Positions 14,179 through 23,608 of a DNA stretch of 40,631 nucleotides are shown piece after piece. Source of the stretch: Coriobacteriales bacterium (GTDB lineage Bacteria > Actinomycetota > Coriobacteriia > Coriobacteriales > UBA8131). Position numbers and translations under genes: made by a program. Position 1 is the first letter of the stretch, and every line of letters starts with the position of its first letter. The stretch is taken from positions 1 to 40,631 of the forward strand of contig JAISGJ010000142.1 in assembly GCA_031263105.1 (NCBI GenBank). Direction: 5' to 3'. The notes beneath the pieces were generated by a model. The model saw only the letters and a program-made list of their open reading frames with translations. It ran no database searches and was not told the origin of the DNA.

Positions 14179-14900
14179 CACCCGGCCTTGCCGCGCAGGC
14201 GGGCGATGAGCGTGCCGAGGCCCTGCGGGGCGCCCGCGCGCGCGCCGTCGTCCGGTGCGCCGTCGCAGAGGACGGCGCTGTCCTGTGCTGTGCCGGGCGC
14301 GGCCCGTGGAGAACCCGCCCCGCACTGTCCCGAGAAAGAAAGACTCATAGGTGAGTCTTTCTCTTCCTTCTTTCCTTCTTTGGCATGAGCACTCACTGAG
14401 GACTCACTGAGCGCCCCCCGGGCGCCGGGGTTTTCCACAGGCGGCGGGGACGCCTTCCCGCCGTCGGCCATTATGCCGTCCGAAGGATGCTCACTGAGTG
14501 CTCCGTGAGTGCCCGGTGAGTCCTCACGGAGCCTGTCCGCGAGCCTCCTGAACCCGCCGGGCAGCCTCTTCCCCGGCGTGCCGCTCCTCTTGCCCGAGGG
14601 GCGGTTGACCTTCTGGTAGTTCAGGAACTTCGGGATGACCCCGAGGACGCCGTCCGGGGAGTCGTGCGCGACGATGCAGCCGACGGCCTCCAGCTCGGCG
14701 AGGTGCGCGGCGACGTCGGCGGCCGTCACGTCGTCGCCGTCGAAGTACAGCGCGCGGCGCATCCTCCCCGGCTGCGCCTTGAACACGCCCACGTCGTCGG
14801 ACATCTGCCACAGCCCGACGAACGTCAGCCTTGCGGCGACCGAGACGCGCCCCAGGCTCTCGGACTCCCAGAACTCCTCGCTGACCACCCGCTTCCTCAC
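14178..14900 (-). CDS. putative phage replication initiator / replisome organizer
   Basis: GTG start; VRKRVVSEEFWESESLGRVSVAARLTFVGLWQMSDDVGVFKAQPGRMRRALYFDGDDVTAADVAAHLAELEAVGCIV...IPKFLNYQKVNRPSGKR; iteron-like repeats inside gene. Confidence 0.72.
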   Translation of the reverse strand: MRKRVVSEEFWESESLGRVSVAARLTFVGLWQMSDDVGVFKAQPGRMRRALYFDGDDVTAADVAAHLAELEAVGCIVAHDSPDGVLGVIPKFLNYQKVNRPSGKRSGTPGKRLPGGFRRLADRLREDSPGTHGALSEHPSDGIMADGGKASPPPVENPGARGALSESSVSAHAKEGKKEEKDSPMSLSFSGQCGAGSPRAAPGTAQDSAVLCDGAPDDGARAGAPQGLGTLIARLRGKAG

Positions 14901-15916
14901 GCCTGCCCCCAACCCAGCCGGGACACGGCCTCGGCCTTGCTCCGCTCGTCGGGGTGCAGGTATATGTTGGCGGTCGTGGACACGTTCGAGTGCCCGAGTA
15001 TGTCCGCGATCGTCTTTATGTCGACGCCCTCCTCCAGAAGCAGGGTCCCGCAGGTGTGCCTGAGGCCGTGGAAGCTCAGCTCCGGGTGCCCGCAGGCGGC
15101 GATGAACCGCTTGAACCACACGCCGTAGCCGCGCTTGCAGGGGACGTCGGCGCGCGTCCTGCCCCCGGGTATCAGCCAGCCCTCCGGCGCGAGCCTCTCC
15201 AGCAGCGCGGCGTGCTCGGGCGGCAGCGGCACGGAGCGCCGCGAGGCCCTGCTCTTGGTCGGCCCCGCGTCGGTCACCCAGCCCGTTCCCCCCTTGCCCC
15301 TGTAGGTGCGCACCCCGCGCTCGACGCGGACCGTGCCCCCCTTGAAGTCGAAGTCGGCCCTGCGCACGCCGCAGACCTCGCCGATGCGCAGCCCCGCGAG
15401 CCCCAGCAGGCAGCCCAGGGCGTAGCGGCGGGCGCTCTGCGCGTGGGCGGCGCAGACGGGCCCCTCGGAGCCGTCGAAGGGCGCCTCCGGGTGCTCCGCC
15501 GTGCGGACGGCGGCGGCGAGGACGGCCTCGGCGCCCTCGCGGTCGAGGCACTTGGGGACGCGGGGCGCGTCGTGGTCGCGGCAGCGGGGCATCTTGAAGC
15601 GGTACACGGCGGGGGCCGTGTAGCCGACCGAGGCCCCGTAGCGGTGGATGCTCGCCATCACGAAGGCCGTGCGCCGAAGCGTCGACGTGGCGTAGCCCAC
15701 GGGCTCCCCCCTCCTGCGCTTGCGGTGGCGCTGCTCGGCGACCGCGTATATCCCGCGCTGCAGCGCGGCGTGGCCGACGTCGGCGACGTCCAGCCTCCCC
15801 ATCGCGGGGACGATGCGGCTCCGGACGTCGGCGCGGTACTGGTCGTAGGTGGTCGGGGACACGCTCGGGGCGGCGTGCCCGTCGAGCCACTCGTGGGCGA
15901 GCTCGGCGAAGGTCAT
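14897..15916 (-). CDS. phage tyrosine recombinase/integrase
   Basis: MTFAELAHEWLDGHAAPSVSPTTYDQYRADVRSRIVPAMG...LAGLRIGEVCGVRRADFDF...LSFHGLRHTCGTLLLEEGVDIKTIADILGHSNVSTTANIYLH (catalytic R...HxxR...H...Y). Confidence 0.95.
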   Translation of the reverse strand: MTFAELAHEWLDGHAAPSVSPTTYDQYRADVRSRIVPAMGRLDVADVGHAALQRGIYAVAEQRHRKRRRGEPVGYATSTLRRTAFVMASIHRYGASVGYTAPAVYRFKMPRCRDHDAPRVPKCLDREGAEAVLAAAVRTAEHPEAPFDGSEGPVCAAHAQSARRYALGCLLGLAGLRIGEVCGVRRADFDFKGGTVRVERGVRTYRGKGGTGWVTDAGPTKSRASRRSVPLPPEHAALLERLAPEGWLIPGGRTRADVPCKRGYGVWFKRFIAACGHPELSFHGLRHTCGTLLLEEGVDIKTIADILGHSNVSTTANIYLHPDERSKAEAVSRLGWGQA

Positions 15917-18347: not shown

Positions 18348-18767
18348 ATGGAGAAGCTGACGCGTGAGCTCAGGGACTTCCTGTATGAAATATCGCCCCA
18401 CAGCGGCGAGCGCCACTATCTCAGGATCAGGTTCGGCGGGCTTCCCTGCGAGGACGTCTTCCAGCAGACGCAGATGGTCGTCGAGCTGAGGAGGAAGGGG
18501 ATGCTCCACATCTCCGAGCCCCTCGACTCCGTCGAGTTCGTCGCCGTCCCCCCTGAGCAGCCGCCAGCAGGCGGCATCGTGGTGGGTTACGCCGACGGCG
18601 GGACCCGGACCGTGAGCTTCCCCCCTGGGTTCACGCTCACCTCCGACGGGAGGAGCTACCGGAAGGAGGCTCGAAAGCAGGCCGCGCTCTGGGTCCTCGG
18701 CATCGTGCTCACGGCCGTCCTCAGCGGGTTCTTCGCGTGGGTGTTTGTGGCCGTAGTCCCGTGGTAG
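18348..18767 (+). CDS. tail-anchored membrane protein, moron-like, paralogue of 19584..20000
   Basis: MEKLTRELRDFLYEISPHSGERHYLRIRFGGLPCEDVFQQTQMVVELRRKGMLHIS...RSYRKEARKQAALWVLGIVLTAVLSGFFAWVFVAVVPW; G/C third positions in this frame; AAAGGAG RBS and TATAAT upstream. Confidence 0.82.
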   Translation: MEKLTRELRDFLYEISPHSGERHYLRIRFGGLPCEDVFQQTQMVVELRRKGMLHISEPLDSVEFVAVPPEQPPAGGIVVGYADGGTRTVSFPPGFTLTSDGRSYRKEARKQAALWVLGIVLTAVLSGFFAWVFVAVVPW

Positions 18768-19583: not shown

Positions 19584-20000
19584 ATGGAGAGGCTGAACGG
19601 GGAGCTCAGGAGGTTCCTGTACGGGATCGCGCCACACGCCGAGGAGGCCGGCTACCTTCCCGAGCGGTACAAGGGCCTGCCTTACGAGGACGCAAGCAAG
19701 GGACTCCAGATGTTCGATGCCCTTGAGAGGAAGGGCATGGTCCACGGCTCCGAGCAGACCAGGGCGACCAGATACGGGGCAGGCCCCTCTGCAGTCCGCA
19801 CCCGGTCCGGGCTCCTCGTCAGCTACGGCGGCGACACGACGCCCGAGCTCAGGTTCCCGGAGGTGTTCTGGGTCACCTACGACGGGGAGAACCATCGGAA
19901 AGAGTCTCGAAAGCAGGCCGCGTCTTGGCTTTTCGGCATCCTGCTCACAGCCGTGCTCGCAGGGCTCTTCGCGGCGGTATTCGCCGTAGTCATCCGGTAG
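19584..20000 (+). CDS. tail-anchored membrane protein, moron-like, paralogue of 18348..18767
   Basis: MERLNGELRRFLYGIAPHAEEAGYLPERYKGLPYEDASKGLQMFDALERKGMVHGSEQ...NHRKESRKQAASWLFGILLTAVLAGLFAAVFAVVIR; near-identical upstream block. Confidence 0.82.
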   Translation: MERLNGELRRFLYGIAPHAEEAGYLPERYKGLPYEDASKGLQMFDALERKGMVHGSEQTRATRYGAGPSAVRTRSGLLVSYGGDTTPELRFPEVFWVTYDGENHRKESRKQAASWLFGILLTAVLAGLFAAVFAVVIR

Positions 20001-20156
20001 CCTCCTCAGAGAGAACAGCCTCCCGTACCCGCCCCACTTCCCACAGTTCTCGGCGTACCGCCGCGCCTGCTCCATGTCGCCCCCACGGAAGTCGTACCAG
20101 AGCGTCTCACCGAAGTTGGGCGGGAAGTAGCCCGCCCTGTAGTAGCGCGGCCTCAT
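20001..20156 (-). CDS. small phage protein family 'YRA-YF-WYDFR' (3' end uncertain; frame stays open antisense to 19503)
   Basis: MRPRYYRAGYFPPNFGETLWYDFRGGDMEQARRYAENCGKWGGYGRLFSLRRLPDDYG...; homologous to the 18926 protein. Confidence 0.55.
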
Positions 20157-20413
20157 GCGGCACCGCCTCCCGCGTGGCCGTTGCGGTCGTCGGCAAGGCA
20201 AGACTTGATGTTAATTAAACCAACATTCAAGCTCAAAAAAATATCATTAATCGAACAGCCGATAAAATTGCAGACTGCTTGAGCTTGGGACACGCTCATT
20301 GCTTCCGGAAACTTTTCGTACTGCGAGTAAGTCTGACGCGAAACGCCAAGGTGGTCAGCAACTGCGAGCATCTTAATGCCCCTGCTTTCTCGCATTTCTT
20401 TTAGTTTGCTCAT
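20153..20413 (-). CDS. XRE-family HTH regulator (Cro-like)
   Basis: MSKLKEMRESRGIKMLAVADHLGVSRQTYSQYEKFPEAMSVSQAQAVCNFIGCSINDIFLSLNVGLINIKS...; divergent from CI-type repressor. Confidence 0.88.
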   Translation of the reverse strand: MSKLKEMRESRGIKMLAVADHLGVSRQTYSQYEKFPEAMSVSQAQAVCNFIGCSINDIFLSLNVGLINIKSCLADDRNGHAGGGAA

Positions 20414-20436
20414 ACCACTCTCCCTTCTCCTTGTTA

Positions 20437-20498
20437 TGTTAATCAAATTAACATTGCTATGTCAAGCAAATTATCCTAAAATGTCAAAATATTTTACA
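20437..20498. promoter_or_regulatory. three operator-like palindromes between divergent cro/CI-like genes
   Basis: TGTTAATcaaATTAACA (20437-20453, perfect), TGTCAAGCAAATTATCC (20460-20476), TGTCAAAataTTTTACA (20482-20498); centres ~22-23 bp apart. Confidence 0.75.
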
Positions 20499-20512: not shown

Positions 20513-21142
20513 GTGTCTGTTTCGTCAAACATAAAGCGTTTACGACTTGCTGCCGACATGACGCAAGAGCAGTTGGCCGAAAGGCTCGGCGTCACACGCC
20601 CCACGGTCACCCAGTGGGAAACCGGATGGTCTCAACCTCGGATGGGGATGATTGAGCGGCTGTCCGAAGAATTTAGGGTGAAAGCATCGGAGCTTGTGGA
20701 TGCCCCTCTTCCACCCGGCGCCATCGTCCCCACGCCCGTCGAGACGGTGCCCGTCCCCGTCTACGGGCGCATAGCGGCCGGGGAGCCCTTGGAGATGTGC
20801 GAACTCGTCGAGGAGGTGGAGGCGCCCGCCACGAAGCGCGAGAGACACCCCTACGCGTACTTCCTCATCGTCTCGGGCGACAGCATGAACAACGAGATAC
20901 TGGACGGGCACCTCGCCCTCATAGACCCGAAGGCGGAGGTCAGGAACGGCGACACCGTGGCGGTCAACGTCAACGGCTACGACGCGACGCTGAAGGTCTG
21001 GCACAGGACGTCCAACAGCGTCATCCTGTCCCCCAACTCGACCAACCCGGAGCACAGGGACATCGTGATAGACGAGACGAGCCCCGACGCGCCCAACCTG
21101 CGCGTCCTCGGCAAGAAGGTGTGGGCGATGTACCCGGAGTGA
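20513..21142 (+). CDS. CI/LexA-type phage repressor, HTH + S24 peptidase
   Basis: MSVSSNIKRLRLAADMTQEQLAERLGVTRPTVTQWETG...VPVYGRIAAGEPLEM...YFLIVSGDSMNNEILDGHLALIDPKAEVRNGDTVAVNVNGYDATLKVW: Ala-Gly cleavage site, catalytic Ser and Lys. Confidence 0.95.
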   Translation: MSVSSNIKRLRLAADMTQEQLAERLGVTRPTVTQWETGWSQPRMGMIERLSEEFRVKASELVDAPLPPGAIVPTPVETVPVPVYGRIAAGEPLEMCELVEEVEAPATKRERHPYAYFLIVSGDSMNNEILDGHLALIDPKAEVRNGDTVAVNVNGYDATLKVWHRTSNSVILSPNSTNPEHRDIVIDETSPDAPNLRVLGKKVWAMYPE

Positions 21143-21174: not shown

Positions 21175-21936
21175 ATGAACGAGGGTACCGTGGGTGTCGA
21201 AACGGCCGAAGGTGACGCTGGACCGGAGCCGCCCCAAGATCCGGAGCAGAAAATCGTCGTCATAGACACTGAGACCACGGGGCTCTCAAAGGGCAAAGAC
21301 GAGGTGCTCCAAGTCGCCATCATCGATTCCGAAGGAGGCGTGCTGCTCCATGAGCTGATAAAGCCAGAAAAACGGAAGAGCTGGCCTAAAGCCGAAGAGA
21401 TACACGGAGTCTCACCGGCAATGGTGAAGGATGCGAAGCCGCTTGTCGACTACGCCGACAGGATTGTGGAGATAGTCAACGAAGCCGACATCGTGATCGG
21501 CTACAACGTGGAGTTCGACCTCGAAATGCTCTTTTCTGGCGGTGTTCCACTAGACCTGCCCAACATCAAAGCCTTCGACGTAATGAAGGAGTTCGCGGAG
21601 GTCTACGGTGACTTTGACGAGAGGCGATGCGACTACCGATACAAAACCCTGAAAGTCTGCGCAAACTACTACAAGTACAAGTTCGACGCACATGACGCCC
21701 TCGCAGACGCGAGGGCCACTCTTTATTGCTATGGGCAGATGGAGGACCGTCTGCGCAAAAAGAGAGAGCAAAGGGAACAGCAACAAATACGGGAGCGAGC
21801 AGATGCAGACGCGCTAATCGCAAAAACGAACGCGGAAAACCGAAGCAGTGGCATCGTTGCCATCATGGTCGCCGTCCTCGTACTCGCGTGTGCCATTTGG
21901 TCATGCGTGTCATGCAGCGCCGTGCTCGGCGGATAG
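21175..21936 (+). CDS. DEDD (DnaQ-like) 3'-5' exonuclease with C-terminal transmembrane helix
   Basis: IVVIDTETTGLSKGKDEVLQVAIID (Exo I), IVIGYNVEFDLEML (Exo II), HDALADARATL (Exo III); C-terminus SSGIVAIMVAVLVLACAIWSCVSCSAVLGG. Confidence 0.88.
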   Translation: MNEGTVGVETAEGDAGPEPPQDPEQKIVVIDTETTGLSKGKDEVLQVAIIDSEGGVLLHELIKPEKRKSWPKAEEIHGVSPAMVKDAKPLVDYADRIVEIVNEADIVIGYNVEFDLEMLFSGGVPLDLPNIKAFDVMKEFAEVYGDFDERRCDYRYKTLKVCANYYKYKFDAHDALADARATLYCYGQMEDRLRKKREQREQQQIRERADADALIAKTNAENRSSGIVAIMVAVLVLACAIWSCVSCSAVLGG

Positions 21937-22046: not shown

Positions 22047-22077
22047 AGCCGCAGTCAGCACGCTGACGCGGCTTTTT
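22047..22077 (+). terminator. intrinsic terminator-like hairpin upstream of the serine recombinase
   Basis: AGCCGC-A-GTCAGC-AC-GCTGAC-GCGGCT followed by TTTTA. Confidence 0.7.
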
Positions 22078-22094
22078 ACGTTCTGGAGGGGTTG

Positions 22095-23597
22095 ATGAAA
22101 AAGCCGTTCAAGGCCGTGATATACGCACGCTACTCCTCGCACGCCCAGCGCGAGGAGTCCATCGAGGACCAGCTGAGGGTCTGCCGCGCGTATGCGGAGC
22201 GCGAGGGCTACGCGGTCGTGCGCGAGTACTGCGACGCGGCCCTCACGGGGCGCAGGGACGACCGCCCCGCCTACCGGCGCATGCTGGCCGACAGCGCCGA
22301 GGGGCTGTGCGGGCAGGCGGCCATCGTCTACAGGACCGACCGCATCGCCCGCAACCGCATGGACGCGCTCGTGTGCCGCGCCACGCTCAGGAAGGGCGGC
22401 GTCAGGCTCCTGAGCGCCACCGAGGCCATACCAGACACCCCCGAGGGCATCCTCATGGAGAGCTTCCTGGACGGCTACGCGGAGTACTACTCGGCGGTGC
22501 TGGCGCAGAGCGTAAGGCGCGGCATGGAGGGCAACGCGCTCAAGTGCATGGCAAACGGGGTCACGCTCTTCGGCTACGACATATCGTCCGGCCGCTACGT
22601 GCCCGACCCCGTGACGGCCCCCCACGCGCGGATGGTGTTCGCCGAGGCTGCGGCGGGCGCGCGCCTTGTGGACATATGCGCGCGCCTCAACGCGCAGGGG
22701 GTCACGACCATGCGCGGCAGGCCGTGGGCGCGCTCGTCGCTGCACCGGATGCTGGACAACGAGAAGTACGCCGGCGTGTACAGGTTCGACGGCGTGCGCA
22801 TAGAGGGCGGGATGCCCGCACTCGTGGACAGAAGGACGTTCGAGGAGGCGAGAAGGATGGCAGGGACGAGGAAGCGGGCCGTGCGCAGCGGGGCCCCGGC
22901 GTACATCCTGACCGGCAGGGCGTACTGCGGCCACTGCGGGGCGACCATGGGCGGCAAGGGCGCCAACGCCAAGGGCAGGCACTACGGCTACTACGCCTGC
23001 AGCTGCGGCAGGGGCTGCGAGAAGCGCCTGGTGCCGCAAGAGGAGGCCGAGGGCGTCGTGGCGGCCCTCACGCGGGCGCTCGTCTGCGACCCGCAGGCCG
23101 TGGACGCGATAGCGGAGGCCGTCGTCTCGTACCGCGACGCGCACCGGGGCGAGGGCGTCGCCGAGGAGCTCAGGGGCAGGCTCGCCGACGCGGGGCGCAG
23201 AGCGGCGAACCTCCTGAAGGCGCTGGAGTCCAACTACTCGGACGCCGTCGCGGAGCGCGTCGCGGCCCTGGGGGAGGAGCAGGACGCGCTCAGGCTCAGG
23301 CTGGCCGAGGAGGAGTCCGTGCTGCCGTCCGTGACGCGCGAGCACGTGGTGTGGTGGCTCTCGCGGATGGAGGGCAAAGACGACGGCGAGCTCGTCGATG
23401 CCCTGGTTTCCAAGGTCACCATGACGAACCATGACAAGCACAGCAATATGCTTGAGATTGCATATAACTTCAAGGAAGACGGGGAATACTACATAATAAG
23501 GGTGGAAGATACGGTTTCGACTTTGGAACGCTTGGTGGGCCGTCGGGGACTCGAACCCCGGACCTTGGGATTAAGAGTCCCCTGCTCTACCAACTAA
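22095..23597 (+). CDS. large serine recombinase (phage integrase); 3' end runs into tRNA-Lys antisense
   Basis: MKKPFKAVIYARYSSHAQREESIEDQLRVCRAYAEREGYAVVREYCDAALTGRRDDRPAYRRMLAD... resolvase domain, recombinase domain, zinc ribbon YCGHCGATM...CSCGRGC, coiled coil. Confidence 0.95.
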   Translation: MKKPFKAVIYARYSSHAQREESIEDQLRVCRAYAEREGYAVVREYCDAALTGRRDDRPAYRRMLADSAEGLCGQAAIVYRTDRIARNRMDALVCRATLRKGGVRLLSATEAIPDTPEGILMESFLDGYAEYYSAVLAQSVRRGMEGNALKCMANGVTLFGYDISSGRYVPDPVTAPHARMVFAEAAAGARLVDICARLNAQGVTTMRGRPWARSSLHRMLDNEKYAGVYRFDGVRIEGGMPALVDRRTFEEARRMAGTRKRAVRSGAPAYILTGRAYCGHCGATMGGKGANAKGRHYGYYACSCGRGCEKRLVPQEEAEGVVAALTRALVCDPQAVDAIAEAVVSYRDAHRGEGVAEELRGRLADAGRRAANLLKALESNYSDAVAERVAALGEEQDALRLRLAEEESVLPSVTREHVVWWLSRMEGKDDGELVDALVSKVTMTNHDKHSNMLEIAYNFKEDGEYYIIRVEDTVSTLERLVGRRGLEPRTLGLRVPCSTN

Positions 23598-23608
23598 GCT
23601 AACGGCCC
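23533..23608 (-). tRNA. tRNA-Lys (anticodon CTT)
   Basis: Minus strand GGGCCGTTAGCTTAGTTGGTAGAGCAGGGGACTCTTAATCCCAAGGTCCGGGGTTCGAGTCCCCGACGGCCCACCA: cloverleaf, anticodon loop CTCTTAA, encoded CCA. Confidence 0.96.

Follow-up and report, generated by a model that had tools for sequence, protein, structure and literature searches.

What does a prophage gain from a 3'-5' exonuclease with a hydrophobic C-terminal helix, encoded between its repressor and its recombinase? The question is raised by a 40,631-nucleotide stretch of a contig from a gut-type bacterium of the Coriobacteriales (the window, meaning the whole stretch that was analysed), in which a DEDDh exonuclease gene occupies this slot (Table 1). 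The best explanation, to which we give about an even chance of being right, is superinfection exclusion by a cytosol-facing, membrane-held exonuclease made in lysogens. The element is recognised as a prophage, cut by the contig end, from the terminase, portal, protease, major head, and major tail genes that lie further left on the minus strand of the same contig, a status also supported by the tRNA-Lys that overlaps the recombinase end. At 55% GC, against 72% in the left part of the prophage, the exonuclease gene fits the profile of a passenger. The prophage holds a second integrase, of the tyrosine type, at 14897-15892(-), besides the serine recombinase. It also encodes two paralogous proteins of about 139 aa (18348-18767(+) and 19584-20000(+); 47% identical), which lie in a duplicated stretch with a spacing of 1236 bp and both carry a C-terminal hydrophobic helix; Pfam and PHROG searches with the two paralogues gave no convincing match.

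Table 1. Features of the exonuclease and its surroundings (positions in the window)
Feature	Position	Strand	Basis
Divergent Cro/CI-type HTH regulator	20153..20446	-	Pfam, annotation
Overlapping promoter-like sites 5' of the repressor, facing a minus-strand promoter-like site	20448..20482	+	Consensus match only
CI-type repressor (HTH_3 + Peptidase_S24)	20513..21142	+	Pfam; 32-bp gap to exonuclease
DEDDh 3'-5' exonuclease, 253 aa, predicted C-terminal membrane anchor	21175..21936	+	ORF, Pfam, PHROG, hydropathy, AlphaFold2
Catalytic exonuclease domain, residues 28-185 (D31, E33, D115, H173, D178)	21256..21729	+	Pfam RNase_T coordinates, alignments
Charged helical stalk, residues about 186-225, predicted single helix with TM	21730..21849	+	AlphaFold2, residue counts
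Transmembrane helix (TM), residues 226-248, then 5-residue uncharged tail	21850..21918	+	Hydropathy
Intrinsic terminator between exonuclease and recombinase	22047..22078	+	RNA fold -23.4 kcal/mol, z -5.3, U run
Large serine recombinase (integrase)	22095..23597	+	Pfam, annotation
tRNA-Lys(CTT) at prophage end, overlapping recombinase end	23533..23608	-	tRNA call

An earlier note on this DNA had placed the gene between a CI-type repressor and a recombinase on the plus strand, had reported three intact exonuclease motifs, and had described a charged linker ending in a hydrophobic helix; all of these descriptions hold. The close spacing of repressor and exonuclease, the promoter-like sites, and the terminator hint at a repressor-exonuclease transcript in lysogens, with the repressor the probable first gene of a shared transcription unit; elsewhere, cI can drive the genes of a lysogeny module as a single transcript (PMC11087260). 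The exonuclease would then be the second gene of a CI-repressor operon and probably expressed in lysogens.

The reading frame is intact (253 codons plus stop), and the protein has the three Exo motifs—D31/E33 in motif I, D115 in motif II, and H173/D178 in motif III—together with the HxxxxD histidine expected of the DEDDh (DnaQ/RNase_T) family. In an alignment of 55 homologues, D31, E33, H173, and D178 never vary, and conservation of D115 is 90% or higher. Pfam RNase_T matches residues 28-185 (E 1.1e-18), phrog_192 ("DNA polymerase exonuclease subunit") matches residues 25-203 (E 5.5e-42), and the PADLOC models matched are mainly generic DEDDh and candidate PDC-S48. Foldseek matches to epsilon, DnaQ, RNase T, and ExoX confirm an RNase-H-like exonuclease fold, the nearest solved folds including DinG, PolC-type polymerase, epsilon/DnaQ, ExoX, ExoI, RNase T, ISG20, and TREX1. 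An RNA 3' exonuclease that acts on membrane-associated RNA and so tunes lysogeny would be compatible with a DEDDh fold that takes in RNase T and ISG20, but by sequence the protein is nearest to the phage DNA-polymerase-exonuclease and CRISPR-associated DEDDh families, and we consider this role very improbable. Residues 185-225 contain 10 K/R and 8 D/E, the hydrophobic segment that follows reaches a best 19-residue hydropathy of 2.87, and the AlphaFold2 model (mean pLDDT 91.7) draws one continuous helix, residues 175-251, from the last helix of the domain through the stalk into the TM. On contig C28 of the same genome, an 81-aa ORF (L387, 6378-6620(-)) matches the C-terminal stalk and TM alone, with 44% identity over residues 182-251 of the window exonuclease, and is apparently a decayed second copy.

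Because 13% of shuffled exonuclease sequences of the same composition reach our threshold for a TM call (a 19-residue hydropathy of 1.8), hydropathy of a single sequence is weak proof of an anchor, and it is conservation of the anchor in homologues that carries the support. These homologues came from alignment queries; single-sequence pattern scans of viral and genome contigs gave nothing. We counted as cassette members those exonucleases with a repressor-type HTH gene directly upstream and an integrase gene downstream, on the same strand. In the set of 68 close, non-redundant homologues, a TM was called in 13/13 cassette members vs 10/55 others (Fisher 3.6e-8), and L378, seen with more flank, is a fourteenth close cassette member with a TM. 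The earlier note had considered that the helix might be absent from all homologues; it is instead found in every close homologue in cassette position. The wider set of 195 loci gave 31/37 cassette members with a TM vs 23/158 elsewhere (Fisher 1e-15), in a scoring that counts the window exonuclease outside the cassette through an ORF-start artefact, corrected in the tree contrasts described below. Shuffling TM-less homologues produced TM calls in 11% of cases, so that calls outside the cassette are close to chance, whereas those inside it are far above. TM-bearing homologues were also found outside the cassette in this set, and six of the 37 cassette members had no called TM, some of them with a Zn-ribbon-like N-terminus instead. 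Cassette members cluster in few clades; on average, TM followed cassette position in 2.4 of the seven well-supported independent contrasts on the tree and opposed it in 0.5, short of significance, and the tree of close homologues gave a similar result. The association between anchor and cassette is strong, but its phylogenetic independence is not established; the safe reading is that the anchor is conserved across deep divergence, with turnover of its type and side. The succession of repressor, DEDDh exonuclease, and integrase is itself a recurrent prophage cassette, met with in many prophages that are unrelated to one another.

This turnover is visible within the clade of the window exonuclease, where we found a single C-terminal anchor helix (the window, L006, and L116), two C-terminal helices (L383 and L378; by eye also L117, L151, and L005), and an N-terminal anchor helix (L038); L004, a relative outside the cassette, has a TM2 domain. 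Related loci show further arrangements: at L379 (1734-6316(-)), the repressor precedes, in order, an exonuclease-BRCT-TM protein, a 304-aa gene with no Pfam match, and an Abi_2 gene, and at L139 (5328-9750), possibly a defence cluster, an exonuclease with two N-terminal TM stands ahead of an HSDR_N protein and a KAP NTPase. Anchors in cassettes may sit at the C-terminus or the N-terminus or form a hairpin. The same prophage slot is also filled by a second, distant lineage of exonucleases, which has a TM in 20 of its 26 members, mostly an N-terminal TM with a charged stalk; some of its TM-less members have a Zn-ribbon-like N-terminus. These patterns bear on whether the protein could be a repair or recombination exonuclease that serves to maintain or replicate the prophage and whose hydrophobic tail is incidental, a role that the name of phrog_192 would suit. 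We think it most doubtful, since the presence of a TM in all 13 close cassette members, with anchors of varying side and type, suggests that the tether matters, and the gene adjoins the repressor rather than replication genes.

For the membrane-held nuclease that we prefer, topology was assessed from K/R counts flanking the TM. In 28 of 33 cases the excess of positive charge lies on the exonuclease side, and in two on the far side, and the nuclease is therefore predicted to be cytoplasmic in both N- and C-anchored forms. The membrane tether on a DEDDh exonuclease in a lysogeny module, on which the earlier note had built its proposal of a possible prophage defence gene, is thus upheld by prediction, with a cytoplasmic nuclease indicated by the charge pattern; the proposal as a whole is supported in part. 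The same anatomy and predicted cytosolic topology would serve a guard against single-stranded DNA arriving by natural transformation or conjugation, not phage, and the nearest folds include the single-strand-acting DEDDh enzymes DnaQ/epsilon, RNase T, ExoI, and TREX1. A 3'-5' exonuclease would suit the polarity of transforming DNA, whose 3' end leads on entry, and mobile elements can block transformation. No link to uptake genes was seen, however, and we regard such a guard as unlikely.

Cassette integrases comprise 16 serine and 21 tyrosine types, and of the cassette repressors some are of the S24 and others of the short XRE type. This variety makes a role linked to a single integrase unlikely, and we rejected an integrase-type-specific function. 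Could the protein be an abortive-infection effector, quiet at the membrane until phage disturbance of the membrane releases or activates it to degrade host and phage nucleic acid alike? A charged stalk with a TM could sense membrane change, and Abi_2 or KAP-NTPase neighbours occur at some related loci, but the exonuclease has no sensor domain and no recurring partner gene was seen besides repressor and integrase, which leaves this mode of action improbable in our judgement.

A different setting from that of the window exonuclease is seen in the nearest TM-less subclade (11 rows of the close-homologue tree). In the loci examined (L041, L036, L045, L047, and L048; Coriobacteriia), the next gene downstream of the exonuclease is a cas3 homologue, and at the one locus tested with PADLOC (L041, 5950-9707) this gene was identified as Cas3e (E 8.7e-203). 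Among relatives without a TM, the closest are the exonucleases associated with type I-E CRISPR. The Cas2/DEDDh exonuclease of a related system trims 3' overhangs of captured DNA (PMC10284694). The CRISPR-associated enzymes belong to the same exonuclease subfamily as the window protein, which unlike them is TM-anchored, prophage-borne, and flanked by a repressor and a recombinase, with no cas gene adjacent; a Cas3-HD search of the window's genome (an assembly about 86% complete) gave no match. Three other matches were set aside: the PADLOC "DEDDh, CAS associated" match as evidence of a CRISPR function, because TM-less phage and plasmid homologues score similarly; C. difficile plasmid-phage relatives as support for the cassette, because they have no evident TM and lie near parA; and an Enterococcus phage match, likewise as cassette support, because it is PolC-like.

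Several known systems share part of this design. Mammalian TREX1, a eukaryotic ER protein, combines a DEDDh 3'-5' exonuclease with a TM tail at the C-terminus; it matches the window protein in fold, its sequence is distant, and the likeness is one of layout, with no kinship beyond the superfamily. The phrog_192 proteins of phages such as 186, N15, and VP882 have a homologous exonuclease domain, and the phage-database matches cover the catalytic domain only, up to residue about 189, leaving the stalk and TM of the window protein uncovered. SNIPE (TM-DUF4041-GIY-YIG) is a membrane-bound nuclease that cuts phage DNA during injection and whose TM prevents toxicity (PMC13190303). Like the window protein, whose tether and cytoplasmic nuclease are predicted, it is an inner-membrane-tethered, cytoplasm-facing nuclease, and by the same logic a tether could separate foreign from own DNA. 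The window protein differs in its superfamily (DEDDh vs GIY-YIG), in its position inside a prophage repressor-integrase module, and in its domains, Pfam finding RNase_T and neither GIY-YIG nor DUF4041; it resembles SNIPE in logic and is not a SNIPE member. Sie genes sit between repressor and integrase and encode membrane-associated exclusion proteins (PMC7693887). With the Sie2009 type, the window exonuclease has in common its location between repressor and integrase and a membrane association that is here predicted, but Sie2009-type proteins are described as small membrane-associated proteins (PMC7693887), whereas the window protein carries an intact nuclease domain. A literature search, with most subscription papers outside its scope, returned SNIPE, Sie proteins, and CRISPR DEDDh enzymes and yielded no account of prophage repressor-integrase modules that contain a membrane-tethered DEDDh exonuclease.

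A defensive role is favoured by the CRISPR type I-E association of TM-less relatives, by the Abi_2 gene near one related locus, and by the known superinfection-exclusion genes in repressor-integrase slots (PMC7693887). In the mechanism that we envisage, the charged stalk and C-terminal TM would hold the exonuclease at the inner face of the membrane, with the nuclease in the cytosol, where it might attack 3' ends of foreign DNA during entry into the cell. Candidate targets are the leading end or a cohesive overhang of an injected phage genome, and attack on 3' cohesive overhangs would stop circularisation. Because circular host DNA offers few ends, a 3'-5' exonuclease adds selectivity for DNA ends, and an enzyme that is tethered and requires a free 3' end would be kept from the host chromosome in the nucleoid. 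Working by itself, an enzyme of this kind may degrade blunt duplex DNA slowly, and for exclusion to be efficient a helicase or a certain type of DNA end may therefore be required. Somewhat more tentatively, and with somewhat less than an even chance of being right, we propose that the cassette has come together repeatedly, is widespread among prophages, and keeps out incoming DNA by 3'-end attack at the membrane, and that members of one exonuclease subfamily have passed between the cassette, in anchored form, and type I-E CRISPR loci, in unanchored form.

If this is true, a nuclease held at the membrane and directed at DNA ends would be common in prophages and would distinguish self from non-self by location and by DNA ends, not by sequence, a second and unrelated solution, beside SNIPE, to the same problem. 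It would explain many repressor-integrase passenger genes that are now likely filed as polymerase subunits, and it would pose the question of whether an ordinary exonuclease and a membrane tether are enough for phage exclusion. The link to type I-E CRISPR exonucleases would show one enzyme's traffic between viral and host defences, and the recurrence of the cassette points to a means, so far overlooked, by which dormant viruses might attack DNA that enters the cell.
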